Positions 568 through 15,110 of a stretch of DNA of 64,000 nt are shown here, one piece after another. Each line of letters begins with the position of its first letter. Position 1 is the first letter of the stretch. The DNA comes from Butyrivibrio sp. GTDB lineage: Bacteria; Bacillota; Clostridia; Lachnospirales; Lachnospiraceae. The translations under genes were made by a program, and so were the position numbers. The stretch spans positions 30,778-94,777 of the forward strand of contig NZ_JAGBLU010000141.1 in NCBI RefSeq assembly GCF_017635265.1. The letters are read 5' to 3'. The notes below the pieces were generated by a model. The model made no database searches. It saw only the letters and a program-made list of their open reading frames with translations, and had not been told where the DNA came from.

Positions 568-1209
568 CTATTCACCGATCAACTTCTTATCTTTTAACAA
601 TTTAATAATGAGCTGCGCAGCATATTCTTCTGTCACAGTTCCAGTATTTATCGATAAATGATATTCCTTAGGGTCTAGCCATTCTTTACCTGTATAATAC
701 TTGTAGTAATCAGCTCTATATTTATCCGTTTGCTGTATGGTCTTTTTTGCCTCTTCATAATTAAACTGAAGTCTTTGCATAACATTCTTTATACATTTTT
801 CTTCCGGTGCCTGGATGTTTATTTTGACCACATTGACCAGACTTCTTAAAATATAGTTTGCAGCTTTACCTATTATTATGCATGATACATTCTTATCAAA
901 AGCCAGGTTCTTTATCACCTGCGCCTGAATATTAAAAAGATTTTCATTTGAAAAATAATCCTTATCTTCTACCCTGAAAACTCTTTCATGGTTATAAACG
1001 CCATCAGAGTTTTTAATTGCCAGAGATCCTTTCTTTATCCTCTCATTTGCTTCATAAAAAAATCTCTCATTAATTCCACTAAGATCAGCTGCCATATTTA
1101 ATATCTCACTATCATAGCAAGGTATTCCCAGCTCTTTTGATAAGTTTCTTGCTATATGGCTTCCTCCACTTCCAAGTCCTCTTGCTATAGTAATAATATA
1201 ATGATCCAT
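568..1209 (-). CDS. Cytidylate kinase-like family protein
   Basis: The 213-residue protein belongs to the cytidylate-kinase-like family (Cytidylate_kin2), a P-loop kinase relative whose natural substrate is usually unknown. The N-terminus YIITIARGLGSGGSHIA is the family's degenerate P-loop, followed by LGIPCYDSEIL, as in family members of similar length. The start ATG has GGAGGG upstream. It is the last gene of the long minus-strand operon, 15 bases after the SLC13 carrier. The next element downstream is the terminator at 423-468. What a nucleotide-kinase-like protein does in a ureide locus is not clear; it could phosphorylate a nucleoside product or be a passenger. Confidence 0.8.
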   Translation of the reverse strand: MDHYIITIARGLGSGGSHIARNLSKELGIPCYDSEILNMAADLSGINERFFYEANERIKKGSLAIKNSDGVYNHERVFRVEDKDYFSNENLFNIQAQVIKNLAFDKNVSCIIIGKAANYILRSLVNVVKINIQAPEEKCIKNVMQRLQFNYEEAKKTIQQTDKYRADYYKYYTGKEWLDPKEYHLSINTGTVTEEYAAQLIIKLLKDKKLIGE

Positions 1210-1224
1210 ATCCGTCGCCCTCCC

Positions 1225-2646
1225 TTACATAAGTCCTATAATTTTCCAATATGGTATGCTTATGATAGCCGCTAAGATTGTTATTGCTATAAATACATGT
1301 GACATTCTCTGTGCCTCTTTAAAGTCCACTGCATCTTTTCCCATTATTGCCTGTGCTGTGACAAAATTAGTATTGGTATATTCTGTAGGCCACGACTTCG
1401 AAGCTGCAATGATAAGGAATCCGGTAATAAAAGGACTGATTCCAAGCAAATTATATGCTGTGGATGCAAAAACTACGTAAAATATGGTAACTGTAGCAAT
1501 CGAAGATACAATAAATATCCTAAACAGATAAACTATGATAACCAGTCCAATCAGATAGATTATCGCATTATGAGTAATTAGTCTTACTATTGGTTCCATT
1601 ACAGCAGCTAACCATACATCTATCTCCAAAACCGTGAAAAGACTGGCGATGCACACAATTCCTCCAACATATATCCATATATCCCATGGAATTTCCGATC
1701 TAAATTCCTGATTAGAAATTGCCCCAACAGTATGAAGAAATGCATACACTATAATTGCAAAAATACATTCAGGAATTCCTGTGTAATTCTTGGTTATCCA
1801 TCCTATCAAGGTGAACACCATCAAAATTCCTGTTATCTTCTCTGTTTGAGACATAGGTCCCAGGTCATTTATCATTGAGTTTAAAGCACTCTTGGTAAGT
1901 CCTATAGACTCTTTAGGGCTATACAAAATCAATAAGACTATGTATACCAATATAAATGCCGCTATTGCCCAAACTAAAGATGCTATAAACCACCCCGTCC
2001 AAGAAAAATTATCCGCAATCTTTTCTGGCATCATACCTACTACCAACAATGCTTGGACTGATCCACTCAAAAAAATGTGTCCTAAGCTTGGTCCATTGAT
2101 AAATACCGCCAAAAACAGTCCAGTAAGTGGTTTGCTCTTTTTTTCCAATGACATTTTTTCTGCTACAGATGCAGTTAATGATGCTAAAAGGCCTGACTTT
2201 GCTGTAGTACTCGGAATAAGCGGATTTAGTACCATTGATGACAAAGAAAGCGCCAATAATTGCCACTTATAAGAACATGGAAATAGCTTTAACAGGTATA
2301 ATGCAATTCTATTCATCAAACCGCTCTTTTTGATTACAACAGTTATAGGAAGTATCGTCAAAACCATCCACATAGTGGTTCCAGAAAAAGCCGAAAAGAC
2401 TGTTGAAAATGGCGCGATATTCAAAATCACACATACCGATAGTACTAGCAATATTACGATATGTTCGTCAAAGACTCCTGTTATCAGCATGAACACCATC
2501 GCAATCAATAGACCGATATATTCTTTCGCTTGTATGCTTATTCCTAGTTCAACTGGAATTCCAATAAAGAGAAGTGCTATAATTGCTGCAAAAGCTAGAT
2601 TAAATATATGGTTCGAGCAAATGGATTTTTTTATTGTATTTACCAT
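1225..2646 (-). CDS. SLC13/DASS-type anion:Na+ symporter
   Basis: This 473-residue integral membrane protein has about twelve hydrophobic segments and resembles the divalent-anion:sodium symporter (SLC13/ArsB-like) family, which carries succinate, malate, citrate or sulfate. The segments NPLIPSTTAKSG and SWPTEYTNTN occupy the places of the two substrate- and sodium-binding turns of the family. It starts 3 bases after the stop of the C-N hydrolase gene, so the two are translationally linked. In this operon it could export or import a dicarboxylate or carbamoyl acid produced by the ring-opening enzymes; that role is inference from context. Confidence 0.78.
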   Translation of the reverse strand: MVNTIKKSICSNHIFNLAFAAIIALLFIGIPVELGISIQAKEYIGLLIAMVFMLITGVFDEHIVILLVLSVCVILNIAPFSTVFSAFSGTTMWMVLTILPITVVIKKSGLMNRIALYLLKLFPCSYKWQLLALSLSSMVLNPLIPSTTAKSGLLASLTASVAEKMSLEKKSKPLTGLFLAVFINGPSLGHIFLSGSVQALLVVGMMPEKIADNFSWTGWFIASLVWAIAAFILVYIVLLILYSPKESIGLTKSALNSMINDLGPMSQTEKITGILMVFTLIGWITKNYTGIPECIFAIIVYAFLHTVGAISNQEFRSEIPWDIWIYVGGIVCIASLFTVLEIDVWLAAVMEPIVRLITHNAIIYLIGLVIIVYLFRIFIVSSIATVTIFYVVFASTAYNLLGISPFITGFLIIAASKSWPTEYTNTNFVTAQAIMGKDAVDFKEAQRMSHVFIAITILAAIISIPYWKIIGLM

Positions 2647-2649
2647 AGC

Positions 2650-3567
2650 TCAAAAACCCTTTTCAAAAACTAATCCCTTTGGCGCATAATAACAGTCAGA
2701 AATCATTCCATATATTTCAGGATGTCTGTCTCTCTGCCAATTAAGTCTTCCTCTGGCATAAATCACATCATCCATATCAAGATCAGCACACACATACTGC
2801 CATCCTTCGTCTGACAAAGGCTCGGTAACCATATTTCCCAACGGATCAGCTATAAATGATTTACCAAAATGATGTCTTGGAACCGGTTCATTATCTACCT
2901 GCTCATCGCCTGCTCTATTAAGTGCAATTACAAAGGAATGCGATTCCAAAGCTCTAGTCTGGAGCTCAGTAATAAACATATCTGCCCTAAGTCCCATAGT
3001 ACATGTAGCAGTTACAATAATCTGTGCGCCCTGAAGATAATAAGATCTCCATACTTCAGGGAAAGAACGGTCATAACAGATCAGCATTGCCATTTTAACT
3101 CCATTGTCGAGCTCAAAAACAGGAAGTGTGTCTCCCGAATTGAAATAGTATTTTTCATAGACTGCGTTATATCTGATATCACCTCCGGGGATATGAATCT
3201 TGCGGTATTTACCAATAACTCCTCTTACCGGAGATACAAGTCCCATGGTGTTATAATAAACTTCTTTTCCGTCTTCAATTGCCTTCTCAAATAATGAATA
3301 GGCAATGTGTACATCAAGCTTCTTCGCTTCCTCGAGCATCCTTGTTGTAGTTGGTCCCGTAAGAAAATCTTCTGCATACTGAAACCATTTCTTTTCTCTT
3401 ACCATTCCAAAATAAATACCCGTCATCATCTCAGGAAATGTCACAAGGTAAGGCTTCTCCTTTTCTACAAGTTCTTCCATAAAAGCGACCTGGCGATCTA
3501 CGTATTCTTCATTTGTCATACCATTAGTTACAGTCCCCGGCTGGATTCCTAATACCTTTACATTCAT
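2650..3567 (-). CDS. Carbon-nitrogen hydrolase (nitrilase superfamily)
   Basis: The enzyme hydrolyses an amide or carbamoyl C-N bond in the cytoplasm. The nitrilase-superfamily triad is intact: Glu46 in TFPEMMTG, Lys123 in KYRKIHIP and Cys164 in LICYDRSFPE (numbered from my start). The 305-residue length and the CYDRSFPE context match N-carbamoyl amino acid hydrolases and beta-ureidopropionase-like members. I start at 3567 because AGGAGGG lies 7 bases upstream; the ATG two codons earlier sits almost on that site. It follows the OYE-like gene by 15 bases and lies 3 bases before the SLC13 gene. It could remove the carbamoyl group from a product of the hydantoinases. Confidence 0.85.
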   Translation of the reverse strand: MNVKVLGIQPGTVTNGMTNEEYVDRQVAFMEELVEKEKPYLVTFPEMMTGIYFGMVREKKWFQYAEDFLTGPTTTRMLEEAKKLDVHIAYSLFEKAIEDGKEVYYNTMGLVSPVRGVIGKYRKIHIPGGDIRYNAVYEKYYFNSGDTLPVFELDNGVKMAMLICYDRSFPEVWRSYYLQGAQIIVTATCTMGLRADMFITELQTRALESHSFVIALNRAGDEQVDNEPVPRHHFGKSFIADPLGNMVTEPLSDEGWQYVCADLDMDDVIYARGRLNWQRDRHPEIYGMISDCYYAPKGLVFEKGF

Positions 3568-3582
3568 TGTCATTCCCTCCTG

Positions 3583-4539
3583 TCATTCACTGCGCATAGC
3601 ACAGTGCTGTTTTCTTTCTTTATAAATATGAAAACATCTATTGCAGCTAACACATCTACTTCCTTCAGTATCCAAGTTCGTCAATAAATCCGGCTGGCAT
3701 ATAAAAGGTCTGCTCATTCCTACAAGATTTGCCCCTTTAGATAAAGCTTTCTCTATATCTTCTTTATTTCGCAATCCTCCTGTCAGCATTACCGGAACGT
3801 TACAACTATCTTTGCAGATCTGAATATCTTTGACATAGTAAAGGTGCTCTTTTTTTGTCTTTTGAATAAAATCTGAACCACTTAACTCAATTGCCCAAAT
3901 TGCATATTTTTCGCAGCATTTGTAAAAATTCTTTTTAATATAATCTGGAATATCTGTATTAACCTTTACTAAAACCGGATAAATATCCACTATTTCTCTT
4001 ACTGCCTTAAATAATTTCGAAGCAATCTCCACGCCATCTTTTCTTTCAGTTAAAAGTTCACTAAGTAAATATCCATGTCCAAAATGGATTTGTACTCCAT
4101 CTGCACCACTTTCTTTTGCCCGCCTTGATGCCTCTGCAAAGCCCGTGATAATAGTATCTATTTCTTCATCTCTTATCTCCTGGGCTGAATCAAAATGTTT
4201 AGCCAGCAGCTCAGAAACCTTAGTCTTTCTTCCGGCATGAGATATCTGAAAAATAATTTTGCTTCCATAAGTGTGAACTGTATCACATAATAGTTTTGCT
4301 CCATCATGATCAAATCTTTCGTCTATCGTGTTTTGATTGGAATCAAGCCTGCCATCTTCTGCTATAAAGAAATTGCCCGTTATTATCATTCCAATTCCGC
4401 TTTGAGCCAGGTGCCGGTAAAGATCTATCTGTTTCGCAGATATACTTCCATCTTCTTCACCACAGTAATCATTTGTAGCTGCTCTGACTATTCGATTCTG
4501 AACTACCAGCTTTTGATACTCATACACTTCATTTATCAT
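3583..4539 (-). CDS. Old-Yellow-Enzyme-like flavin oxidoreductase with C-terminal Cys cluster
   Basis: The 318-residue protein has the FMN-binding TIM barrel of NADH:flavin oxidoreductases: QISHAGR near residue 98, ADGVQIHFGHGYLLSELL near 147-163, and a phosphate-binding TGGLRN and VGMSRPF near 253-280. After the barrel comes C296-x2-C299-x2-C302-x10-C313, a close match to the [4Fe-4S] ligands of 2,4-dienoyl-CoA reductase-like enzymes. The large C-terminal FAD/NADH domain of that group is absent. The start overlaps the upstream stop as TAATG, so translation is coupled. In this operon it could reduce (or dehydrogenate) a ring C=C bond before hydrolytic opening. It must receive electrons from another protein if it lacks an NADH site. 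Confidence 0.82.
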   Translation of the reverse strand: MINEVYEYQKLVVQNRIVRAATNDYCGEEDGSISAKQIDLYRHLAQSGIGMIITGNFFIAEDGRLDSNQNTIDERFDHDGAKLLCDTVHTYGSKIIFQISHAGRKTKVSELLAKHFDSAQEIRDEEIDTIITGFAEASRRAKESGADGVQIHFGHGYLLSELLTERKDGVEIASKLFKAVREIVDIYPVLVKVNTDIPDYIKKNFYKCCEKYAIWAIELSGSDFIQKTKKEHLYYVKDIQICKDSCNVPVMLTGGLRNKEDIEKALSKGANLVGMSRPFICQPDLLTNLDTEGSRCVSCNRCFHIYKERKQHCAMRSE

Positions 4540-5939
4540 TAGATTGTTCTCTTAAGATATCTACCACGACCTGGCTTTGCTAACACTACGCCGTCCTTCT
4601 GAAGCACTTCTCCTCGACTTAATGTGTATCTTGGCCAGCCCTTGAAAGTCATACCATCGTAGATTGAAAAATCTGAACATCCGTATAATTCCGGAGTAAT
4701 TGTTCTCTCCCACTCCAAATCAACAAGTGCCAGATCTGCATCTTTTCCGACCTCAATCGAACCTTTATCCGGCAGGTTAAATACCTCTGCCGCATTCGTA
4801 CTAAGTACCTTTGCAATTGTTGTAAGAGGGATTTTTCTTTTCAGATGTCCTTCACTTATAAGTGCAGGCAACGCGATTCCCTGTCCGGAAAAACCAACCC
4901 AGACATCCCACAAATTATCTGCATGAGCTCCATTTCTTGTGTACTTCTGTGCCCTTGTAACAGGAACATTATCTGTTCCTATGGTTTTAACAATCCCTTC
5001 TCTGATACCTTCCCAAAGAGCCTCATTATCTTCTTTGGTATGCAATGCAGGATTCACCTTAGCATCCATTCCGGCCGTCTTGTCTAGTAATAGATACTGT
5101 GGGCAGGTTTCAATTGTAACTTTTCCACATTCAATATTTTCTGAGAGCGCCTTATACACATCCAACGACTTCTTGGCAGACGTATGAACTATATAAATAT
5201 TTCCGTCCAGTTCTCCGTTTATGAGCATAGCTCCTGCCACACAGTTAGATTCCACAAAATCGGGTCTTCCTGCGTCCCACTCTTCGATTCCTGTTGCATT
5301 GGGATGAAGTTCCTGTTGCTCTTTTAAAAAGGCTCTAAACATATCCGGATCTTCACAATGTATGCAAAGTAAAAGCTTTGGATCAATACTGTGAAGCTTT
5401 TTAATAATGTAATACAGATCTGCCTTATCTAAAGTAAGGGCTTCTTCCTTCTGTATTCCATAAAAAGTATGTGCTATGTCCTGCTTGTCAAAGAAAAATT
5501 TAAAGGATGTTATTCCCAGATTTCTAACATAGTCTTCGAGTTCTCCCATGTGCTTCTTTGCACATAACCCTAGAGAAATTCCAAAATCAATGTAAGAATT
5601 CTCCTCACCTATTTTTATTTCATCGGATACAGTGTCGAAATAGTTTCCTTTTCCTCTATGGTATTCAACAATCGACGTTGTTCCACCTATAACTTCTCTT
5701 TCAGTGCTGTATCTATATGATTCTTCAAAGCTGTTATAAAGGCCTAAATGCTGGTGTGGATCAATTGCTCCCGGCATAACATACAGCCCGCTGGCATCAA
5801 TTACTTCACAATCAGCTCCGTCAATTGCCCCAGGCTCGCTGATTGATGCTATCTTCTCAGCTTCTATCAAAATGTCAGCCTTTTTCACTTCGTCCCTTAA
5901 AACAACCATTCCATTTTTTATCAGCGTTCTTTTTCCCAT
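4539..5939 (-). CDS. Dihydropyrimidinase/hydantoinase-like amidohydrolase 1
   Basis: This 466-residue metal-dependent cyclic amidohydrolase carries the whole binuclear set expected for hydantoinase, dihydropyrimidinase or allantoinase: H62 and H64 in DPHQHLG, the carboxylated Lys147 in TSFKFFF, H194 in IHCED, H252 in IVHTSA and D323 in GTDN. A GGAG site precedes the ATG. It is a paralogue of the enzyme at 6680-8062; both end with nearly the same FSIYDGMTFKGWPRYT block. It follows the cysteine hydrolase by 13 bases. The reaction is opening of a cyclic ureide or imide to an N-carbamoyl or half-amide acid. The substrate cannot be told from the sequence. Confidence 0.85.
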   Translation of the reverse strand: MGKRTLIKNGMVVLRDEVKKADILIEAEKIASISEPGAIDGADCEVIDASGLYVMPGAIDPHQHLGLYNSFEESYRYSTEREVIGGTTSIVEYHRGKGNYFDTVSDEIKIGEENSYIDFGISLGLCAKKHMGELEDYVRNLGITSFKFFFDKQDIAHTFYGIQKEEALTLDKADLYYIIKKLHSIDPKLLLCIHCEDPDMFRAFLKEQQELHPNATGIEEWDAGRPDFVESNCVAGAMLINGELDGNIYIVHTSAKKSLDVYKALSENIECGKVTIETCPQYLLLDKTAGMDAKVNPALHTKEDNEALWEGIREGIVKTIGTDNVPVTRAQKYTRNGAHADNLWDVWVGFSGQGIALPALISEGHLKRKIPLTTIAKVLSTNAAEVFNLPDKGSIEVGKDADLALVDLEWERTITPELYGCSDFSIYDGMTFKGWPRYTLSRGEVLQKDGVVLAKPGRGRYLKRTI

Positions 5940-5952
5940 AGCAATTCACTCC

Positions 5953-6657
5953 TTACGCTTCTTTTTCTTTTAATGAATAAAAATATTCTTTAACATAATC
6001 GCTCTTTATCACATCGCCATATTTCATCCAGATATCAAGCATTGCCACTTTGTGTGATGCCTCAATTCTATCTGTAATACAATCTTCTACATACCCAAGG
6101 TTATAGCTTCGTGTTATCGCATCAATGGCGGTTGCTCTACAGCATCCACTGCTAGAATTTCCTACTATTATTAAAGTATCTATACCAAGCTTTACCAGAT
6201 AACTTTCAAATGGCGTTCCATAAAATACACTTGCATAGGCCTTGGGAATAACCAGCTCATTTGGCAGCGGGGCTAAATCCGGGACTAATTCACTCGCCGG
6301 GTTTCCATCTAAATACTTAGTCTGATCCCTCTTTGTTTTTGATGAAAAACCATCAAACGCTAAAGTCTGCTTTTGAACATTCCTGGTATACATAATTGGT
6401 ATTCCGCATTCTCTTGCCACATCTCTCAAAGAGATGATTCTTCTAAGAGAAGCCCATGCCTTTTCCCCTCCACCTGAAGGCCACTCATCAAGCTGTTCCT
6501 CTATAGGTTTGTCTGCTCCAAGGTAATTGGGCTGACAATCTATAATTAATAGAAGCGGCTTTTTTCCAAATCCACGTGTCTGTCCATATCCACCTTTTTC
6601 TATAACTATTTTGTCTACTTCTGAAAGAAGATCATCCCAGCAATGTTGTTCTCCCAT
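5953..6657 (-). CDS. Isochorismatase-family cysteine hydrolase (N-carbamoylsarcosine amidase-like)
   Basis: The 234-residue protein is a cysteine amidohydrolase of the isochorismatase fold. The triad is visible as D40 (LLIIDCQ), K139 (VIPKAYAS) and C172 (SSGCCRATAID), numbered from the ATG at 6657. That start has AGGAGGAG about 6 bases upstream; an in-frame ATG six codons earlier lies before this site. The family includes N-carbamoylsarcosine, maleamate, biuret and nicotinamide amidohydrolases. Its place between two hydantoinase-type genes fits hydrolysis of a carbamoyl or half-amide product. The KAYASVF stretch, where nicotinamidases carry a metal site elsewhere, argues for the carbamoylsarcosine/maleamate branch, but this is only a leaning. 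Confidence 0.83.
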   Translation of the reverse strand: MGEQHCWDDLLSEVDKIVIEKGGYGQTRGFGKKPLLLIIDCQPNYLGADKPIEEQLDEWPSGGGEKAWASLRRIISLRDVARECGIPIMYTRNVQKQTLAFDGFSSKTKRDQTKYLDGNPASELVPDLAPLPNELVIPKAYASVFYGTPFESYLVKLGIDTLIIVGNSSSGCCRATAIDAITRSYNLGYVEDCITDRIEASHKVAMLDIWMKYGDVIKSDYVKEYFYSLKEKEA

Positions 6658-6679
6658 AATATCTCCTCCTGACATATCA

Positions 6680-8062
6680 TTACCTTGGAATAAATTTACC
6701 TGTTGGTTCAGAAACTATCTTGCCATCTTTCTGAACTATTTTCCCTCTTACCATCGTATATCTTGGCCACCCCTTAAAAGTCATTCCATCATATATAGAG
6801 AAATCACAATGACCAAACAACTCTTTATCGATAGTTCTCTCCCAATCGAGATCCATAATGGCGAAGTCTGCATCATATCCCACTCTCATCTCACCCTTTG
6901 TCTTCAAGCCAAATTTGCGAGCCGAATTAATACTATTTACTTTAGATAGCTGGCTTAAGGATATTCCCCGTTTATGATATCCGTCATTTATGAGTGTGGG
7001 TAATATCATTCCAGCTCCGGGAAATCCAGGAATAACATGCTCAATATCTTTGCCCTTTTTGTATTTTGTCGAGAGATCACATGGACAATTATCTGTTCCC
7101 ATTGATGTGATTGTCCCGTCCTCTATTCCTTTCCAGAGTTCTTCGCTATCATCTGCTGTTCTAATCGGAGGTACAACTGTCGCATTCAATTTAGCAGGAG
7201 CATTTTCATCAAGCACCAGGTAATGTGGGCATGTCTCAAGTCCAACTTTCCCCTTCAATATGGGTTTTAACTGCCTTGCAAGTCGCACATCATCTCCTGC
7301 GCTGTTATGCACGATATAAATATTTCCATCTACTACATGATTGACCCAAAGTACACTTAAAACCGCGCTTGCCTCGCCAAAATCTGGCCTTGCCTTAGAA
7401 TAAGAACTAAGGTTATACTGATCAAGTTCAGGATTATCAAAAGTTAATCTCTGTTCAGGATAGAAAATCTCTGTATCCTCACAATGAAGACAAAGAACTG
7501 CATCTTTGTTCAATTCCTTAAGCTTTTTAAGAATATCCATTACCTCTCGTTTATTACCCAAAAGTCCTGTCCCAGGAGTGAGTCCATAATGCTCTTCCAA
7601 GCGATTTGTCTTATCCAGATAGAACTTAAATGAAGTCACATGAAGTTCTTTCATATATCTTTCTATATCAGCTACCTGAGACTTCTTTACCAACCCCAGT
7701 GAAAAAGTATAATCAACCATTGATTTCTCATCACAAAACTTTATATAGTCAGGCACTGTATCAAAGTAATCATAGTTGTGTCTATGGAACTGAAGAACTG
7801 TTGTTAATCCTCCGATTACAGCTCTTTTTGAATCTTCAACAACATCCTCTTTATAGTCCTTATAAATTCCCCAGTGAGTATGCGGATCAATCGATCCTGG
7901 CATAACATATAGCCCACTCACATCCAGAATTTCATCAACAGTCTCTTTGCACTCTCCTGGTTTAAAAAAAGCAGCAATCTTACCATCTCTTATCAAAATA
8001 TCTGCAGGATATGTGTCTTCTTCAAATACTACATTCCCATTTTTTATAAGCATTTCACCCAT
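6680..8062 (-). CDS. Dihydropyrimidinase/hydantoinase-like amidohydrolase 2
   Basis: This second cyclic amidohydrolase (460 residues from 8062) has H61/H63 in DPHTHWG, the Lys in VTSFKFYLDK, LHCED, IVHNSA and MGTDN, so all metal ligands of the family are present. I start at 8062 because AGGAGG lies 8 bases upstream; the longer reading to 8089 overlaps the preceding livF stop and has no better site. It is similar along its length to the paralogue at 4539-5939, but the first-shell loops differ (DPHTHWG versus DPHQHLG, TDNCPCDLS versus TDNVPVTR). This suggests two substrates, two enantiomers or a hetero-oligomer. Confidence 0.85.
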   Translation of the reverse strand: MGEMLIKNGNVVFEEDTYPADILIRDGKIAAFFKPGECKETVDEILDVSGLYVMPGSIDPHTHWGIYKDYKEDVVEDSKRAVIGGLTTVLQFHRHNYDYFDTVPDYIKFCDEKSMVDYTFSLGLVKKSQVADIERYMKELHVTSFKFYLDKTNRLEEHYGLTPGTGLLGNKREVMDILKKLKELNKDAVLCLHCEDTEIFYPEQRLTFDNPELDQYNLSSYSKARPDFGEASAVLSVLWVNHVVDGNIYIVHNSAGDDVRLARQLKPILKGKVGLETCPHYLVLDENAPAKLNATVVPPIRTADDSEELWKGIEDGTITSMGTDNCPCDLSTKYKKGKDIEHVIPGFPGAGMILPTLINDGYHKRGISLSQLSKVNSINSARKFGLKTKGEMRVGYDADFAIMDLDWERTIDKELFGHCDFSIYDGMTFKGWPRYTMVRGKIVQKDGKIVSEPTGKFIPR

Positions 8063-8085
8063 ATCTATGCCTCCTGTTAATATGA

Positions 8086-8790
8086 TCACATTCCCAAATA
8101 TGCTTTCTTTAAGTTTTCATCCTGTAACAGATCCGAAGCCTTGCCTTCCATAGATATAATCCCCTGTTCCAAAACATAACCTCTGTCTGCAAGTTTCAAC
8201 GCATTTTGAACATTCTGCTCAACCAGCATAATGGTTACTCCATCTTTTTTTACCTTTTCTATGATGTCGAACATGATATCTGTAAGTAGCGGTGACAAAC
8301 CAATTGAAGGTTCATCAAAAATCAATAACTTAGGACAACACATAAGACCACGTCCTATTGCCACCATCTGTTGCTGCCCGCCTGATAATGATCCTGCAGA
8401 CTGCTTAGCCTTAACTTTCAAATCCGGCATCATGTTATAAACATATTCCAAAGTATCTTTTCTCTTTTGCTTGGGGCCTTTCAAATAAGATCCAAGTTCA
8501 AGATTTTCCTGCACTGACATATCTGGAAATAGCTTTCTTCCTTCGGGAACCTGCACTACACCATGCTCAGCAATTTTAGAAGGATTCAGTTTTGTTAAAT
8601 CAACGCCGTCAAAAACGATACTTCCTGAATTGATTTTTTTAAGACCGGATATTGCTTTCAACAGTGTTGTCTTTCCCGCTCCATTGGAACCAACAAGTGA
8701 TATCATTTCTCCATCTTTTACCGTCATTGAAACTCCCTGAATAATCTGCAGATTTCCATAATTGACGTATAAATCCTTGATCTCCAGCAT
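8086..8790 (-). CDS. livF: Branched-chain-type ABC transporter ATPase LivF
   Basis: The 234-residue ATPase has Walker A GSNGAGKTT (about residues 34-42), the signature SLSGGQQQM and Walker B LLIFDEPSIGLSP, together with the VPEGRKLFP segment typical of LivF. It would pair with LivG on the cytoplasmic face of LivH/LivM. The start has GAGGAAACAGT before it. It is separated from LivG by the MmgE/PrpD gene, which is unusual since livG and livF normally adjoin. The family imports branched-chain amino acids but also urea, amides and other small polar molecules, so the operon context is a better guide to substrate than the name. Confidence 0.92.
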   Translation of the reverse strand: MLEIKDLYVNYGNLQIIQGVSMTVKDGEMISLVGSNGAGKTTLLKAISGLKKINSGSIVFDGVDLTKLNPSKIAEHGVVQVPEGRKLFPDMSVQENLELGSYLKGPKQKRKDTLEYVYNMMPDLKVKAKQSAGSLSGGQQQMVAIGRGLMCCPKLLIFDEPSIGLSPLLTDIMFDIIEKVKKDGVTIMLVEQNVQNALKLADRGYVLEQGIISMEGKASDLLQDENLKKAYLGM

Positions 8791-8802
8791 ACTGTTTCCT
8801 CC

Positions 8803-10143
8803 TCATTTATCATTTACAGTCATCTTAATAAGATCTTGAATGTTTTCTTTTTCCTCCAAATGACTGATATAATCAATAATTACTTCTTGTGATTTCTCAT
8901 CCCATATGTTTTTTGTGAGACTTTTGAACTTTTTCACCAGCTCTTTGTTATCAAATGGATCAAGATAGTCTCCTTTTGTAACTGAAGAATCTTTTTCAAT
9001 TACCTTCCCATCTTTCTGTACTATTCTCATGTGATTTCTTCGAACATCTGGCAACAATTTTGTAAAATCCTTATTTTCATTTACTTCAATCTTTTTAGCC
9101 AATTCAGTTATTTGTGGATCTTTTATGTTTTCATCTGTGATATCTCCTACCGAAAGACTTCCCTTTACAATATTTGTTGCGAGCGTGACCGGAATAGAAA
9201 ACTTAGCTGCAAACGCATTTTCTGCCTCTTGGCTTTTTAATTTTGAAGCTGCACTGTAAGTCTCAATCTCTATTTTTTCGATATTTCCGACTTCCAATCC
9301 TTCCGTCATCAGCTGATTCACCATATCTACAAAACTATGCGTATATCTACATGCTGAATGAAGTTTAAAATAGTTCTTTGTTATCAGATAGTTTTTACCA
9401 ATGTCTTTGCTCAACAATTCAAAATCAATTTCACCATCAAGCACTTCCTGCCAGACAGATAACAGTGAATCCACACTGCTTTCTATGCCTGCATCAATCA
9501 TATTCGATGCCATAGAACCAACTAAATTTGACATCCCTATATAAATATTTCTAAGCTGATCGCCATGAAATGCACTAGTCCAAGTTGTAGCCTGCGGCAA
9601 TGAGTTTGCTAATACTATGGATTTAACTATTGATCCCCGATCTCTTTTTTTGAGTTTGCAACAAACTGCAGCTGCACCAAGAGTTTGAGAAGTTCCATGC
9701 ACATGCATTTGTGATTTTAGTTTTGTTGCACCTCCCCACCTACATGACACCTCGTAAGCTGCTACAAGTGCTGTAATCGCGTCTTTACCAGTTGGATTGA
9801 TATCCTGGCACTCTGCAAGAAAAGAAGGAACTATATGGCACGCAGGATGCCCAAAAGCAAACTGATTACCTTCATCAAGTTCATTTTTTACCATTGCAGA
9901 AGCGTTTAATAAAATGGAATCACTTTTACTAATCCGTCTTTTTCCTATGAGCGGATAGCCACCTTCAGGAAATGCATCTTCGATATACTCACTATTTCCA
10001 ATGGCAATGCACGCTATAGAGTCAAGCAAAATCATTTTAGCCTGATCAATTGCTTCATCCGGCAAGTCTTCATACTTTAATCCCGCTATGAAATCTGCCT
10101 GTCTATCCAATTGTTCCTGCAACAGTTCTTTGTCAATCATCAT
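8803..10143 (-). CDS. MmgE/PrpD family protein
   Basis: The 446-residue protein matches the MmgE/PrpD family, which includes 2-methylcitrate dehydratase, cis-aconitate decarboxylase and iminodisuccinate epimerase. Family landmarks are DSIACIAIGNSE near residue 40, ELDEGNQFAFGHPACHIVPS near 88-107 and the later ACRYTH. The start overlaps the livG stop as ATGA, so the gene is part of the operon and translationally coupled. It sits between livG and livF, inside the transporter gene set. In a ureide or imide pathway it could isomerise, hydrate or decarboxylate a carboxylic acid intermediate; the sequence does not say which. Confidence 0.85.
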   Translation of the reverse strand: MMIDKELLQEQLDRQADFIAGLKYEDLPDEAIDQAKMILLDSIACIAIGNSEYIEDAFPEGGYPLIGKRRISKSDSILLNASAMVKNELDEGNQFAFGHPACHIVPSFLAECQDINPTGKDAITALVAAYEVSCRWGGATKLKSQMHVHGTSQTLGAAAVCCKLKKRDRGSIVKSIVLANSLPQATTWTSAFHGDQLRNIYIGMSNLVGSMASNMIDAGIESSVDSLLSVWQEVLDGEIDFELLSKDIGKNYLITKNYFKLHSACRYTHSFVDMVNQLMTEGLEVGNIEKIEIETYSAASKLKSQEAENAFAAKFSIPVTLATNIVKGSLSVGDITDENIKDPQITELAKKIEVNENKDFTKLLPDVRRNHMRIVQKDGKVIEKDSSVTKGDYLDPFDNKELVKKFKSLTKNIWDEKSQEVIIDYISHLEEKENIQDLIKMTVNDK

Positions 10144-10874
10144 TTTATGTCCTTCTTATATGCGCTTCCGAGATATGATTCAATTACTCTTTCATTCTTT
10201 GTTATATCCTGAGGAGTCCCTTCTGCTATCAACTTACCGTGATCGAGAACAACTACACGGTCAGACAATTTCATAAGAGCCGCCATTATATGCTCAATCA
10301 TCAGAATTGTTACTCCTGAATTTCGTATCTTTAAAACCAGTTCAACACATTCCTCTATTTCAGTGGGCGTTAACCCTGCCATTACTTCATCTAAAAGTAG
10401 CAGCTTGGGCTTTGTTGCCAGCGCTCTGGCCATCTCCAGTTTTCTCTGATCTCCTATTGTCAAATCTGCTACTATGGAATTCATCTTGTCTTCCATTCCT
10501 ACAAATTGGATCATTTCTCTCGCAATTTTCTCAGCTGCAGAATAAGAGCTTTCCCTATTAAAAGCACCTACCATAACATTTTCCAAAGAAGTCAATTGAC
10601 CGAAAGGCTGTACAATCTGGAAAGTTCTGGCCATTCCTGCTTTACAGTTTTGAAATGTTGATCGTTTGGTTATGTCATGATTGTCAAATTCTACACTTCC
10701 AAAAGTTGCCGGATAAAATCCTGTGATTGAATTGAAAAATGTAGTCTTACCTGCTCCATTGGGTCCGATAAGTCCAACAATCTCGCCTTCTTCAATGTCC
10801 AAATTTACTGAATCCACTGCGGTTAGTCCGGCAAATTTTTTTGTTACATTTCTAGCTTTTAACAAAGTTGCCAT
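10140..10874 (-). CDS. livG: Branched-chain-type ABC transporter ATPase LivG
   Basis: The 244-residue ATPase has Walker [13 protein letters not shown] near residue 37, the LivG-type [19 protein letters not shown] segment, and Walker [14 protein letters not shown]. The signature reads [15 protein letters not shown] rather than the common LSYGQQRRLE, a modest departure in a usually conserved loop. A GGAGG site lies before the ATG and the gene begins 3 bases after livM. With LivF it would power import through LivH/LivM. Confidence 0.92.
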
Positions 10875-10877
10875 ATA

Positions 10878-11897
10878 CTATTCCTCCGCTTTCTTCTTGT
10901 CATATTTGTTAACTAATTCCTTTGTCAATCCAATAACTCCTTTAGGCATTACCATAATTACTATTACAAGGATCAGTCCATATACGACCATATTCATACC
11001 TATATAATTTGAAAGTGCTGCGTTTGTTATCTCCGAAATAGGTTCCAGGATCATTGCTCCAATGATTGGACCAAACACTGTTCCTGCACCACCGATAATA
11101 CATGGTGTGATTGCTGATACAGATACTGTATTGGAGAAAGCAATTGTCGGATCAATGTACAGATAATACTGTGCATAAAAACTTCCACCTATTGCCGAAA
11201 GCATTGCACTAGCGATAAGTGCTATCATTTTATACTTAAAAGCATTGATTCCCAGTGCTCTTGCCGCATCTTCATTTTCTCTTATAGCTACAAAATAAAG
11301 TCCCATCTTAGTTCTACGGATTTTGTATAGTGCAAAGGTTATTGCTGCAAGCATCACAAATGCTGCATACAAAAAACCTTGTTTACTCCCAAACTGCATT
11401 AGTGCAATGCTCTTACTATAAGGAATAGATACACCGCTTGATGCGTGAAGTGCTTTGGTATTCTTAAACAGCACTCTCAATATTTCACAAAAAGCCATGG
11501 TAGCAAGTGCAAAATAATCGCCTTTCAGATTATAGTGAAAAGAAAGATAACCGATGCCTGCAGCGACTAGCCCTGCTACTATCATTCCTAACACAAGACC
11601 GATCCATGGATTTATTCCCAAATCCACGAACAAAATACTTGAGGTATATGCCCCTAATCCATAAAAAGCTGCATGCCCGAATGAAAATTGACCTGTGTAT
11701 CCACTCATCAAATTCCAACACTGAGCAAAATATGCTGAGGTTAAAATTGCTATAATAAGATTTAATCTATAATTACTCACGTATAATGGTGATAAGAGTA
11801 CTGCCAAACTCAAAACACAAATGATTACAATCTGTTGGACTGTTAGCCTTCCATTATTTGTTGAATTTGTCGCCCTTTTTAAAAAATCACTAATCAT
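10878..11897 (-). CDS. livM: Branched-chain-type ABC transporter permease LivM
   Basis: The 339-residue membrane protein has about ten hydrophobic segments and the LivM signatures [20 protein letters not shown] near residue 65, [13 protein letters not shown] near 230 and [21 protein letters not shown] near 280. AAGAAGGGATGAT precedes the start and the upstream livH stop is within this site. It forms the inner-membrane channel with LivH. Confidence 0.93.
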
Positions 11898-11898
11898 A

Positions 11899-12762
11899 TC
11901 ATCCCTTCTTTCCTAATAAACCAGTCGGCTTAATTATCAGTGTCATAATAAAGATCAGATAAACGACAAGTTCACTCCAGGAACCGCCCATATAAAGAGA
12001 TGAAAATGACTCAACTACACCGATTATCAATCCCGCAACAATTGCTCCCCAAATATTGCCAAGTCCTCCGAATACTGCAATCACAAAGCACTTTAATGAA
12101 TATGAATTACCGCTTGTAGGATAAATATACTGTGTCGGTGTAAGTAGTGCTCCAGCTACGCCCGCACATATGATTCCGAGTCCAAAAGCTATCTGATTTA
12201 TCTTAGGAACTTCAATCCCCATCAGTGTTGCTCCTTCAGGCTGCACCGAAGTAGCTCTGATAGCTCTCCCCAAATCTGTTTTTTCCAAAAGGATGTAGAT
12301 TCCTATTGAAATAGCAGCTACGAATATAAATGCTACCAGCTTGGGTTTGTTAATAGTTAATGCCCCAAGGCTTATAGCAGAATCAAATCCAGGAATCGTT
12401 ACGGATTTATAGTTGGCACTAAAAATAACCAAAATCAAATTCTCAATAACAATTGCCAGTCCTTGTGTCAGGAGCAGCTGGTTGTATCCAGCTACTCCCA
12501 TAAGAGGATTCAAAAATATCTTCTGGATGAGGAATCCAATAATAAACATGATTATCATGACTATAGGTAATGCAATATAAGGAGTAATTCCAATTAGAAT
12601 ACACAGTTCAAAGGTCACATACATCCCAACTGTAATAAGTGCACCATGAGCAAAATTTGTAATCCTCATAACTCCAAATATTAGTGAAATTCCAAGTGCT
12701 GCCAGTGCATATACTCCTCCCATCAGTATTCCATCTATGGACGCTTGAAAAAATGCATTCAT
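11899..12762 (-). CDS. livH: Branched-chain-type ABC transporter permease LivH
   Basis: The protein (287 residues from 12762) has about eight membrane segments and LivH landmarks: GGVYALAALGISLIFGVMRI near the N-terminus, RATSVQPEGATLMGI near residue 180 and a C-terminal KPTGLLGKKG. The ATG at 12762 is chosen because GGGAGG lies about 7 bases upstream. An upstream in-frame TTG at 12780 has no such support. It follows the binding-protein gene by 36 bases, the usual order in Liv-type operons. Confidence 0.93.
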   Translation of the reverse strand: MNAFFQASIDGILMGGVYALAALGISLIFGVMRITNFAHGALITVGMYVTFELCILIGITPYIALPIVMIIMFIIGFLIQKIFLNPLMGVAGYNQLLLTQGLAIVIENLILVIFSANYKSVTIPGFDSAISLGALTINKPKLVAFIFVAAISIGIYILLEKTDLGRAIRATSVQPEGATLMGIEVPKINQIAFGLGIICAGVAGALLTPTQYIYPTSGNSYSLKCFVIAVFGGLGNIWGAIVAGLIIGVVESFSSLYMGGSWSELVVYLIFIMTLIIKPTGLLGKKG

Positions 12763-12798
12763 AATTATTCCTCCCAACAACAGCCAGTTCCCGACCTT

Positions 12799-14022
12799 TT
12801 ATTCTCCAACGATCAACTCTGCTTCAGCGAATTCCCTAGGATAAACAACTACATGTTTTCCATTCTGTATTTGAACCAGTACACCTGCTGCATTCACATT
12901 TTCTCCCTTTTCATCAAAGGTAATTGGGCCCGCCTGGGCAAGAACATGATCTTCAATATTAGTTTCATGCAGAGCTTTCTTTAATGCTTCAGAGTCAGAG
13001 CTTCCTGCTCTTTCAAGTGCATCAGCAATTACATAAATGCTTTCATATCCCCATACAGCGTGAACTGACATATCATCACCATATTTTTCTTTATAAGATG
13101 TAAGCAATTCTTCTGTCTTCTCACTGTTAGGATTAAATCTATAGTTAAGATCCAAATAATTCTCTACTGTGTCACCAAAATCCTCTATGAACTTAGTATC
13201 TGATATTCCGCCATTTGCAACGCCGCATACCATCTTAAGTTCAACTCCTCTTTCATTTAATTCTTTGACCAAAAGAGATGTATCTGCGAAATATCCGATT
13301 GTTATAAGTAAATCCGGTTTTAAGTCTGCTATCTTTGTAACCTCTGTACTTAATGTTGCTGTACTTGCTGAATATGTTATCCTGTCAAGAAGTTCGATTC
13401 CGGTTGAACCCATATTTTCTGCAATAATGTCACCTGAATCTGTTCCTGTTAATGAATCTTCATGGATCAAAACTGCAGTCTTTATATCATCTGTTTTGAT
13501 TTCAGTGATGTATTCAATAAAATCATGAGCAAAGACATCTGCATTTGGCTGTATTCTGAAACAATATTCAAATCCATTTTCAAACATCGCTACATTGTTG
13601 CTTACTGTAACTAGGAATGGAACCTGATTTTGTTCTGCCTTCTGCATGCATGTAAGAGTTACTCCAGACTGGAATGTTCCCGTAATGATAGAACAACCTT
13701 CAGAAATTAGTCTCTCAGTCTCAGACGCGCCTGTGTCAGCACCTGCCTGACTATCACCAACTTCCAATTCAAGTTTTGCTCCTCCCATTGAAGCAATACC
13801 GCCTGCTGCATTTATTTCATCAATAGCAAGTTGTTGGGCGTTTACGATTGCCTGAGCCTCATACGCATATGATCCTGTTAGCGGATGTACTGATCCGATT
13901 TTTATTACGCTGCCACCGCCTAATGCACTGGCAGTGGATGAATTTGTGGAACCGCAGCCTGTAACAGCTAGAATTGTTAACAATCCTGACATTGCAATAG
14001 ATAATAATCTTCTTTTCTTCAT
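12799..14022 (-). CDS. ABC transporter substrate-binding lipoprotein (Leu/Ile/Val-receptor family)
   Basis: The 407-residue protein begins with a lipoprotein signal (MKKRRLLSIAMSGLL then LAVTGCG), followed by a Ser/Thr linker. A type I periplasmic-binding fold starts at IKIGSVHPLTG, with AIDEINAAGG as in branched-chain amino acid, amide and urea receptors. It is anchored outside the membrane and feeds LivHMGF. The ATG at 14022 is preferred over 14040 because GGAGAGGAGAG precedes it. It heads the transport-catabolism operon. A terminator-shaped hairpin with a run of seven Us lies 29 bases before the start codon. Confidence 0.92.
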   Translation of the reverse strand: MKKRRLLSIAMSGLLTILAVTGCGSTNSSTASALGGGSVIKIGSVHPLTGSYAYEAQAIVNAQQLAIDEINAAGGIASMGGAKLELEVGDSQAGADTGASETERLISEGCSIITGTFQSGVTLTCMQKAEQNQVPFLVTVSNNVAMFENGFEYCFRIQPNADVFAHDFIEYITEIKTDDIKTAVLIHEDSLTGTDSGDIIAENMGSTGIELLDRITYSASTATLSTEVTKIADLKPDLLITIGYFADTSLLVKELNERGVELKMVCGVANGGISDTKFIEDFGDTVENYLDLNYRFNPNSEKTEELLTSYKEKYGDDMSVHAVWGYESIYVIADALERAGSSDSEALKKALHETNIEDHVLAQAGPITFDEKGENVNAAGVLVQIQNGKHVVVYPREFAEAELIVGE

Positions 14023-14051
14023 AATGCTCTCCTCTCCCATTCAACAGATAC

Positions 14052-14195: not shown

Positions 14196-15110
14196 TTATA
14201 ACCCATTAAATCCATTAATATACATTTCCCTTGAAAGCTCAATAAATTCCCTGGCTGCATTGGTAAGATATCGGCCTCTGTTATAATATAGCGATATTTG
14301 TCTCTTATCAGCCAGTTCTTTAATACTATAGTAATTAAGATCTTCACAATAATCTGATTTATACATACTGTAAGGAATCATACAAGCCCCTATTCCCAAT
14401 TTAGCCATAGCGTATGATGCAGTCGCCGTTGTACATTCTATTGTTCCTTTCGGTCTTTTATAACTAATTTCATATAGGCTATCCAACAGTTCTCTTATAA
14501 ATGTATTTTCTTGTAACCTTATAACAGGAATATCAGACAAATTCTTCATTTCAATCATCTTGATTTCTTTATTATTGCTTTGATGATTATTATCTTTGGC
14601 CTTTGGTACTGCCATCAAAAAAGCCTCCTCATACAGTACTACTCTCTCATATTTAGCTGTTGCAAAATTACTGGTTGCCATAACCAGATCCAATTTTCCA
14701 TCATCGGCAATACCTTTTAATTCAGGCTCAGTATCTTCAATTATTTCGATTTGTACATTAGGGAATTTTTGTTGGTATCTCATTATGAGCTCAGGTAAAG
14801 TTGATATACTATTTAGATAGCCTGTACCTATCCTCAATACTCCTGATAATGTGCCAGTTAGATCGTCCAATCTTTCATAGAACTCAGCCTCATCTGACAG
14901 CATTTTTTTTGCCATATTTACATACAAATCTCCAGCCGCAGTTATTTTCAGCGGATTTGTTCTCTCAAATAATGCAACCCCCAATTCATCTTCAAGTTTT
15001 TGTACAAACTGAGATAACGAGGGCTGTGAAATCATAAGCACATCAGCTGCTTCAGAAAAACTCTGCCTTTCAGAGAGCGTTATTATATACTTTAATTGAC
15101 GTGAGTTCAT
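14196..15110 (-). CDS. LysR-family transcriptional regulator
   Basis: This 304-residue regulator has the N-terminal LysR winged helix (MNSRQLKYIITLSERQSFSE, SQPSLSQFVQKLEDELGVALFER) and a C-terminal periplasmic-binding-like co-inducer domain. AAGGGG precedes the ATG. It is transcribed in the same direction as, and directly upstream of, the Liv/hydantoinase operon, and is its most likely activator. A short dyad ATACTTAGTAT with a TATAAT-like sequence lies just after its stop (about 14172-14188), a plausible LysR site at the operon promoter with no good -35 box. That would fit an activator-dependent promoter. Confidence 0.9.
   Translation of the reverse strand: MNSRQLKYIITLSERQSFSEAADVLMISQPSLSQFVQKLEDELGVALFERTNPLKITAAGDLYVNMAKKMLSDEAEFYERLDDLTGTLSGVLRIGTGYLNSISTLPELIMRYQQKFPNVQIEIIEDTEPELKGIADDGKLDLVMATSNFATAKYERVVLYEEAFLMAVPKAKDNNHQSNNKEIKMIEMKNLSDIPVIRLQENTFIRELLDSLYEISYKRPKGTIECTTATASYAMAKLGIGACMIPYSMYKSDYCEDLNYYSIKELADKRQISLYYNRGRYLTNAAREFIELSREMYINGFNGL

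Follow-up and report, generated by a model that had tools for sequence, protein, structure and literature searches.

Which compound is served by a bacterial operon that joins a Liv-type importer to two cyclic amidohydrolases and two further C-N hydrolases? Such an operon occupies the minus strand near one end of a 64,000-nucleotide stretch of DNA from Butyrivibrio sp. (family Lachnospiraceae; contig NZ_JAGBLU010000141.1, positions 30,778 to 94,777), here denoted the window, to which all coordinates refer unless another locus is named. A preliminary description, made from the sequence alone, proposed import, reduction, ring opening and C-N cleavage of a hydantoin, dihydropyrimidine, creatinine-like ureide or cyclic imide. 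The reading that we prefer, tentatively and with a little less than even confidence, is that the operon, probably under LysR control, scavenges nitrogen from small cyclic amides that bear a carboxylate, most likely imides of the maleimide or succinimide type and possibly also 5-substituted hydantoins. The evidence comes from the conservation of the operon, the catalytic residues of its enzymes and, above all for the substrate, the genes that accompany homologous enzyme pairs in archaea and other bacteria.

Gene content of the operon

Thirteen minus-strand open frames at 568-14040, at the place originally described and separated by intergenic gaps of -4 to +18 nt, are presumably co-transcribed. 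In the order of transcription they encode a binding protein, LivH, LivM, LivG, an MmgE/PrpD-family protein, LivF, a dihydropyrimidinase-like amidohydrolase (DHP1), an isochorismatase-like cysteine amidase (CSH), a second amidohydrolase (DHP2), a protein like the old yellow enzymes (OYE), a nitrilase-superfamily hydrolase, an SLC13-type carrier and a Cytidylate_kin2-family protein. Pfam and NCBIfam scans covered ten proteins, namely the thirteen minus LivH, LivM, LivG and LivF, plus a LysR-family regulator encoded upstream; they returned the families Peripla_BP_6, two amidohydrolases, isochorismatase, CN_hydrolase, Oxidored_FMN, MmgE/PrpD, Na_sulph_symp (DASS/SLC13) and Cytidylate_kin2, in agreement with the initial family assignments. 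LivH, LivM, LivG and LivF were identified from their sequences and from matches with Liv proteins annotated in Haloferax. The features are as follows, with identities to two related loci, from a sheep-rumen Lachnospiraceae metagenome-assembled genome (L005) and from Candidatus Merdinaster equi (L006).

14196..15110, minus strand, LysR-family regulator (Pfam LysR_substrate and HTH_1), 155 nt upstream of the operon
12799..14040, minus strand, Liv-type lipoprotein solute-binding protein (Peripla_BP_6, E 9.5e-54); alternative start at 14022, the one chosen in the preliminary description
11899..12780, minus strand, LivH-type permease, 84-86% identical to L005/L006
10878..11897, minus strand, LivM-type permease, 77-81% identical to L005/L006
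10140..10874, minus strand, LivG-type ATPase, 87-89% identical to L005/L006
8803..10143, minus strand, MmgE/PrpD-family protein with both Pfam domains (N and C), 51-55% identical to L005/L006
8086..8790, minus strand, LivF-type ATPase, 88-89% identical to L005/L006
6680..8089, minus strand, DHP1, dihydropyrimidinase-like cyclic amidohydrolase; metal ligands H70, H72, K155, H202, H261, D333
5953..6675, minus strand, CSH, isochorismatase-like cysteine amidase, relative of N-carbamoylsarcosine amidase; D46, K145, C178
4539..5939, minus strand, DHP2, second cyclic amidohydrolase; metal ligands H62, H64, K147, H194, H252, D323
3583..4539, minus strand, shortened OYE-like flavoprotein (Oxidored_FMN) with HxxH at 152-155 and a C-terminal Cys cluster (CxxCxxC)
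2650..3573, minus strand, nitrilase-superfamily hydrolase, carbamoylase-like; E48, K125, C166, CYDR motif
1225..2646, minus strand, DASS/SLC13-type anion carrier (Na_sulph_symp, E 1.8e-41; NCBIfam dass 137 bits, under the cut-off of 199)
568..1209, minus strand, Cytidylate_kin2-family protein (PF13189, E 3.7e-48), with a homologue at the equivalent place in L005 and L006
430..468 (read 468-430), minus strand, intrinsic-terminator-like hairpin of 18 pairs and a T tail, from a consensus scan, 3' of the last gene

The LysR gene, which has counterparts at the equivalent place in L005 and L006, is the probable local regulator, and the hairpin, judged by its form and position, probably marks the end of the operon. 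A promoter scan found 47 candidates versus 53.4 expected from shuffled sequences, that is, no excess.

Conservation and distribution

A search for related loci gave two named ones, L005 and L006. Both keep the gene order from the LysR gene to the kinase-like gene, minus the OYE-like gene, a recurrence beyond chance. Among the three operons, DHP1, CSH, DHP2 and the nitrilase are 84-94% identical, the Liv subunits and the binding protein 77-89%, the SLC13 carrier 68-81% and the kinase-like protein 61-75%, whereas MmgE/PrpD and LysR share only 48-56%. Across the 12 operon genes common to all three, differences affect 47-69% of third codon positions and 2-25% of second positions; the changes fall mostly at third positions, and the genes are under purifying selection. 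The OYE-like gene, missing from two of the three operons, is accessory.

Searches with CSH recovered 1 of 79 genomes of the genus (E 1e-30) and 1 of 391 in a draw of the class (E 1e-35), in both cases the window's own, and a search with DHP1 recovered 2 of 397 in a draw of the family (E 1e-100), namely the window's own and G187, whose match sits at nearly identical coordinates to L006. A draw of the phylum yielded CSH relatives in 10 of 398 genomes (E 1e-30), own included. The operon is thus real, conserved and rare in the sets searched, and its examples to date come from gut-type bacteria. Its patchy presence suggests horizontal transfer, of which base composition (38.0% G+C in the operon versus 39.2% in the window beyond 15110) shows no sign.

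Cyclic amidohydrolases and amidases

The metal site of the superfamily (HxH, carboxylated Lys, two His and Asp) is complete in both DHP1 and DHP2, the Asp-Lys-Cys triad of the N-carbamoylsarcosine amidohydrolase family is present in CSH, and the Glu-Lys-Cys triad of the nitrilase superfamily is complete in the nitrilase; the roles of these residues are presumed to be those familiar from the respective families. The earlier statement that all checkable catalytic residues are intact holds for these four enzymes; for the OYE-like protein it says too much, because the alignments of that protein to solved OYEs end at about residues 164-188 and restart near 241 in the best match, leaving a middle stretch after the HxxH pair unaligned. 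The GTG start of DHP1 is doubtful, since the L005 protein starts at MGDML and the L006 protein has an internal Met there; by this comparison, the start in the window is probably at about 8062.

DHP1 and DHP2 are 45% identical and are sister copies in a 32-row tree (100/98), in one clade (100/99) with an enzyme of another genome of the phylum, G507, which suggests that one substrate family would be handled twice rather than two unrelated pathways being served. The best NCBIfam matches of both are allantoinase and hydantoinase models, all far under cut-off: the D-hydantoinase/dihydropyrimidinase model TIGR02033 gives 219-224 bits (cut-off 393) and the ErtD model of ergothioneine/hydantoin-5-propionate degradation 143-191 bits (cut-offs 600-650).

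The PDB matches of CSH include 26st_A (E 7.9e-24), which ranks first, and 3ot4_A (1.1e-20), the latter of which we take to be a maleamate amidase. In the CSH tree, 26st, 3ot4 and 4l07 group apart from the window CSH (94/91), a placement made unsure by long branches and by the inclusion of PDB chains as aligned stretches only. The motif DRxxxSH (Ser-His) is found in 3 of 3 CSHs of the window type and in 13 of 15 rows linked to a DHP gene (the exceptions are G419 and one Halomarina row), versus 3 of 10 relatives without a DHP gene and none of the three solved relatives, where Pro-His stands instead. GNS ahead of the nucleophile motif SGC is shared by the window type and 5 of 7 haloarchaeal rows and is not found in G507. 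CSH is thus set apart from the N-carbamoylsarcosine amidohydrolases and maleamate amidases (NicF), the subfamily of its closest solved relatives, with which it shares Asp-Lys-Cys, by its place in the tree and by the Ser-His and GNS motifs common to most haloarchaeal genes of the kind considered next.

A wider module of linked DHP and CSH genes

In tblastn searches of plasmids, DHP and CSH genes turned up as neighbours in haloarchaea, Shinella, Antarctobacter, Variovorax and Hydrogenophaga, and within one gene run in two Methylobacterium. The Haloferax/Halorubrum cluster comprises genes for Liv permeases, a binding protein, MmgE/PrpD proteins, a flavoprotein, an LLM protein (of the F420 type in Haloferax), CSH and DHP, together with a CoA transferase, an HMG-CoA-lyase-like protein, LeuC and LeuD. 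The Shinella and Antarctobacter clusters encode an aconitase and an "isocitrate lyase/PEP mutase family" protein; the two Methylobacterium clusters combine a protein of the latter family with CSH, Liv genes, two MmgE/PrpD genes, a flavoprotein and DHP. The flavoprotein resembles flavocytochrome c and fumarate reductase in Haloferax and Methylobacterium nodulans. For the lyases of three loci (L010, L035, L040), the best model is methylisocitrate lyase PrpB (243-304 bits, cut-off 354).

The closest relative of the module found outside the window type is that of G507 (CSH 61% identical, DHP 46% to DHP2, binding protein 49%), where MmgE, a TRZ/ATZ-type amidohydrolase, two FadH/OYE-type enzymes, EtfAB, LeuCD, Liv genes and a PrpB-like lyase (342 bits, cut-off 354) cluster together. 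The G507 loci (L024, L033, L034) also encode a CCG/Fe-S protein and three CaiB-type transferases and, on inspection by eye, have TRAP-type transporter genes. Among the nine other phylum-draw genomes with a CSH relative, a DHP gene lies near CSH only in G507 and G419 (within 11-20 kb of sequence each, in some cases truncated at the end of a contig); in G476, a CSH at 60% identity adjoins genes for a DctM-type carrier and a molybdopterin enzyme, with no DHP in the 14 kb seen.

The context of the module was compared between 13 DHP+CSH loci (haloarchaea, alpha- and betaproteobacteria and two other Bacillota) and 10 DHP loci without CSH, by one method throughout, namely tblastn of family references (E 1e-15) within 10 kb of DHP. 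A C-C lyase (PrpB-, HMG-CoA- or citramalyl-CoA-lyase-like) was found at 12 of the 13 DHP+CSH loci, the sole exception being Variovorax SRS16, and at none of the 10 controls (p 9.6e-6). Aconitase-family hydratases (8/13 versus 0/10), MmgE/PrpD (9/13 versus 1/10), CaiB-type CoA transferases (5/13 versus 0/10) and Liv permeases (6/13 versus 0/10) follow the same trend. The hydratase and lyase references were drawn from four of the 13 cases (L010, L011, L012, L024); without these, the lyase count is 8 of 9 versus 0 of 10 (one-sided p ~1e-4). The cases are not independent, as they include five haloarchaea and two Methylobacterium, and the controls were hand-picked from DHP hit lists; their contexts include reductive pyrimidine genes in Deinococcus and urocanate hydratase in Haloarcula and Halomicrococcus. 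The count leaves out L041 (Haloferax, almost a duplicate of L011), L013 and L042 (in which no DHP was found) as well as further records from the hit lists (Shinella WSD5-1, Variovorax PBL-E5 with its DHP+CSH locus, Haloferax alexandrinus, another H. gibbonsii and Halomarina PSR21); the three pairs of Halomarina L012 were counted once here and as three rows in the trees and residue comparisons. Greedy calling of open reading frames, which missed annotated genes in GC-rich loci and was replaced by the tblastn count, gave lyase 8, aconitase family 6, MmgE 7 and LivH 2 of 13, versus 0, 0, 1 and 0 of 10 controls.

Two plasmids carry further genes worth recording. In L053 (Variovorax sp. PBL-E5), positions 797-11356, F420 biosynthesis genes and genes for an F420 reductase, a GTP-binding protein, an LLM oxidoreductase and a CN hydrolase (35% identical to the window nitrilase) lie divergently beside DHP, and possibly serve an F420-dependent ring degradation. 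The Shinella plasmid bears hemC (L010, 23826-24758; hydroxymethylbilane synthase match of 333 bits, cut-off 164) on the opposite strand, 7.7 kb from DHP+CSH; it was not used as evidence.

Proposed pathway and alternative substrates

In the proposed pathway, the Liv importer would take up the ring compound, DHP1 or DHP2 would open the ring to yield a half-amide or an N-carbamoyl acid, the remaining C-N bond would be cleaved with release of ammonia by CSH after DHP1 and by the nitrilase after DHP2, MmgE/PrpD would rearrange or hydrate the resulting substituted di- or tricarboxylate, and the SLC13 carrier would export or exchange the acid product. The order of the steps is likewise a proposal, and the basis of the presumed pairing is gene order, CSH adjoining DHP1 at a gap of 4 nt. 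Of the preliminary description, nitrogen scavenging by import, ring opening and C-N cleavage is thus retained; the case for reduction as a general step is weakened because two of the three operons lack the OYE gene. Both DHPs have an Arg within the stretch 94-104 (103 in DHP1, 95 in DHP2), which hints at a carboxylate on the substrate; such an Arg occurs in 10 of 15 module DHPs versus 3 of 11 control DHPs, so that the two groups are not cleanly separated. Two of the three Arg-bearing controls neighbour urocanate hydratase and may act on a propionate-bearing ring.

For the DHP1-CSH pair, an imide is favoured over a ureide. Aconitase-family hydratases and enzymes like PrpB or citramalyl-CoA lyase act on substituted maleates and malates, and hence the hydratase and lyase context of DHP+CSH fits the conversion of an imide via a half-amide to a dicarboxylate better than an amino-acid product; an N-carbamoyl amino acid would rather need an aminotransferase. 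Because the CSH family includes both N-carbamoylsarcosine amidases and, if 3ot4 is what we assume, maleamate amidases, half-amide chemistry is open to CSH. The most specific version of the imide reading, a long shot built on general chemistry and gene context, is that the operon and the module degrade carboxylated or alkylated maleimides from chlorophyll, heme or bile pigments, such as hematinic acid. Ring opening and deamidation would turn hematinic acid into a homologue of homoaconitate with an added methyl group; a homoaconitase-like LeuC, a PrpB-like lyase and MmgE/PrpD would suit such a compound, giving pyruvate and a carboxylate; chlorophyll is abundant in the rumen, the horse gut, salterns and diatom cultures.

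Several observations weigh against the imide reading. No lyase or aconitase-family gene was found within 10 kb in the window (seen for 6.7 kb on its left side), L005 or L006 (a 14-kb contig), all of which do carry MmgE and Liv genes. The window's assembly (G000, 88% complete), searched for the PEP_mutase and aconitase families, has no match to the former, to which PrpB belongs, and two loci of the latter on other contigs. Use of the carbon as in the module therefore looks less probable, and it is simpler to suppose that nitrogen is released and the acid exported through SLC13. MmgE itself is poorly conserved among the three operons; it is, with LysR, the most variable protein, as if fitted to different side chains. 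The module DHPs fail to group as a single clade (5 changes needed), and hence the module may have arisen repeatedly or switched substrate; the module DHPs on plasmids, G507 excepted, are about 30-35% identical to DHP1 and DHP2, so that their substrates may differ from those in the window. Five residues past the carboxylated Lys, hydantoinase 1k1d and 9 of 15 module DHPs carry a Tyr that presumably has a function in hydantoinases; the DHPs of the window type, six of six, have Lys there. Finally, the top PDB match of CSH, 26st, is named N-carbamoylsarcosine amidohydrolase, and the best PDB relatives of the nitrilase are hydrolases of N-carbamoylputrescine and N-carbamoyl-D-amino acids, both of which favour a ureide.

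The main competitor, which we consider unlikely on balance though worth serious attention, is accordingly a route in which both pairs are hydantoinase/carbamoylase couples: hydantoins or dihydropyrimidines would be opened to N-carbamoyl amino acids, from which CSH and the nitrilase would release amino acid, CO2 and ammonia, while MmgE/PrpD may act as a racemase. To the named relatives of CSH and the nitrilase this route adds the Arg at Cys+3 of the nitrilase, as in D-carbamoylase 6le2 (the N-carbamoylputrescine hydrolase compared has Gln there), and the allantoinase and hydantoinase models that rank best for both DHPs, all far under cut-off. Like hydantoinase/D-carbamoylase systems, the operon couples a DHP-family enzyme with a full metal site to a carbamoylase-like nitrilase; it differs from them in the low TIGR02033 scores, the Tyr to Lys replacement, which speaks against the ureide as well, and the lack of a hydantoin racemase of the usual family. 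Also contrary to the ureide route are the lyases and hydratases around the DHP+CSH pair and the position of CSH outside the group of its three solved relatives. One version of it would convert N-methylhydantoin to sarcosine. Clostridium sp. FS41 degrades N-methylhydantoin with an ATP-independent amidohydrolase, and the paper on its genome found a gene for only one subunit of the known two-subunit kind (PMC4417704); a DHP of the window kind would be a candidate for this activity. As sole substrate, creatinine/N-methylhydantoin was rejected, given that DHP+CSH elsewhere sits with hydratases and lyases, and it is kept only as this version. Thus, of the substrates first listed, a cyclic imide is favoured by context for DHP1-CSH and a hydantoin is a further candidate, most of all for DHP2 and the nitrilase, which look more hydantoinase/carbamoylase-like and for which a ureide would be no worse a fit than an imide.

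The remaining proposals are all improbable. Degradation of dihydroorotate, orotate or 5-carboxymethylhydantoin to aspartate, as in Clostridium (Zymobacterium) oroticum, has a small chance: the possible carboxylate-binding Arg of both DHPs, the carbamoylase-like nitrilase and a DASS carrier that could move orotate-like anions would suit it, but the operon has no dihydroorotate dehydrogenase, dihydroorotase models score below the hydantoinase and allantoinase ones, and MmgE and the wider context are left unexplained. Slightly smaller is the chance of a route like that of isonicotinate or citrazinate, proceeding via cis-aconitamide to cis-aconitate. In its favour, aconitase genes stand beside DHP+CSH in Shinella and Antarctobacter, and a three-row MmgE/PrpD profile ranks, among solved relatives, a Bacillus IRG1-like protein, cis-aconitate decarboxylase and IDS epimerase above 2-methylcitrate dehydratase; yet Arg198 of the window protein aligns with Lys207 of cis-aconitate decarboxylase, presumably catalytic, the operon lacks a ring-hydroxylating molybdenum enzyme, and the three tested lyases outside G507 are best described as PrpB-like, which points to a methylated acid. 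The matching papers, so far as their text was available in a full-text search, do not mention citrazinic acid or cis-aconitamide. Least probable of all is reductive catabolism of uracil or thymine, which dihydropyrimidinase-like enzymes and a carbamoylase-like nitrilase would fit, for the operon has no PreT/PreA and the PreA-linked Deinococcus control DHP groups with other control DHPs. The Rut pathway likewise places an isochorismatase-fold amidase beside ring opening, but the RutB model gives 36.5 bits (cut-off 378) and the operon has no RutA-like gene; Rut, ErtD and allantoinase identities were rejected, their model scores being far under the cut-offs.

Two catabolic systems resemble the preferred imide route. 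The cyclic-imide (imidase/half-amidase) metabolism of soil bacteria proceeds by dihydropyrimidinase-type ring opening followed by half-amide hydrolysis; the operon differs in uniting a Liv importer, two DHPs, two C-N hydrolases, MmgE/PrpD and SLC13, and the likeness considered here is one of reactions. The nicotinate fermentation of Eubacterium barkeri, with dimethylmaleate hydratase and dimethylmalate lyase, recalls the LeuCD-like hydratase and PrpB-like lyase of G507; such genes are not in the window operon, and the ring would be opened by a DHP and not by enamidase. Full-text literature searches, with most subscription journals beyond their reach, showed no paper describing this gene set among the matches listed; in the portions available, PMC6801745 mentions neither an isochorismatase nor an MmgE gene and PMC4016543 no isochorismatase. 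The suggestion that the route may be undescribed is, within that coverage, not contradicted.

Other features of the locus

The best PDB sequence for the window binding protein, which is 49% identical to that of G507 and 32-33% to two haloarchaeal ones, is 8wch_A (E 7.6e-45). The same structure is far ahead as solved relative of the Haloferax binding protein (L011, 6783-8105; 2.7e-34) and is not the best solved relative of that of Methylobacterium nodulans. The OYE-like protein resembles the front half of a FadH-type enzyme. The Cytidylate_kin2-family protein closes all three operons, yet no kinase is called for in the proposed pathway. The only Rfam match in the window at gathering scores is a Clostridiales-1 RNA (RF01699; 25009-25164, minus strand, 105.5 bits).

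Implications

The analysis provides a set of genes with which a seemingly undescribed catabolic route can be tested. It ties together genes that are vaguely annotated in archaea, proteobacteria and gut anaerobes, namely those for MmgE/PrpD proteins, isochorismatase-like amidases, "dihydroorotase family" amidohydrolases and Liv importers. If the imide reading is true, these would be genes for cyclic-imide catabolism across domains of life.

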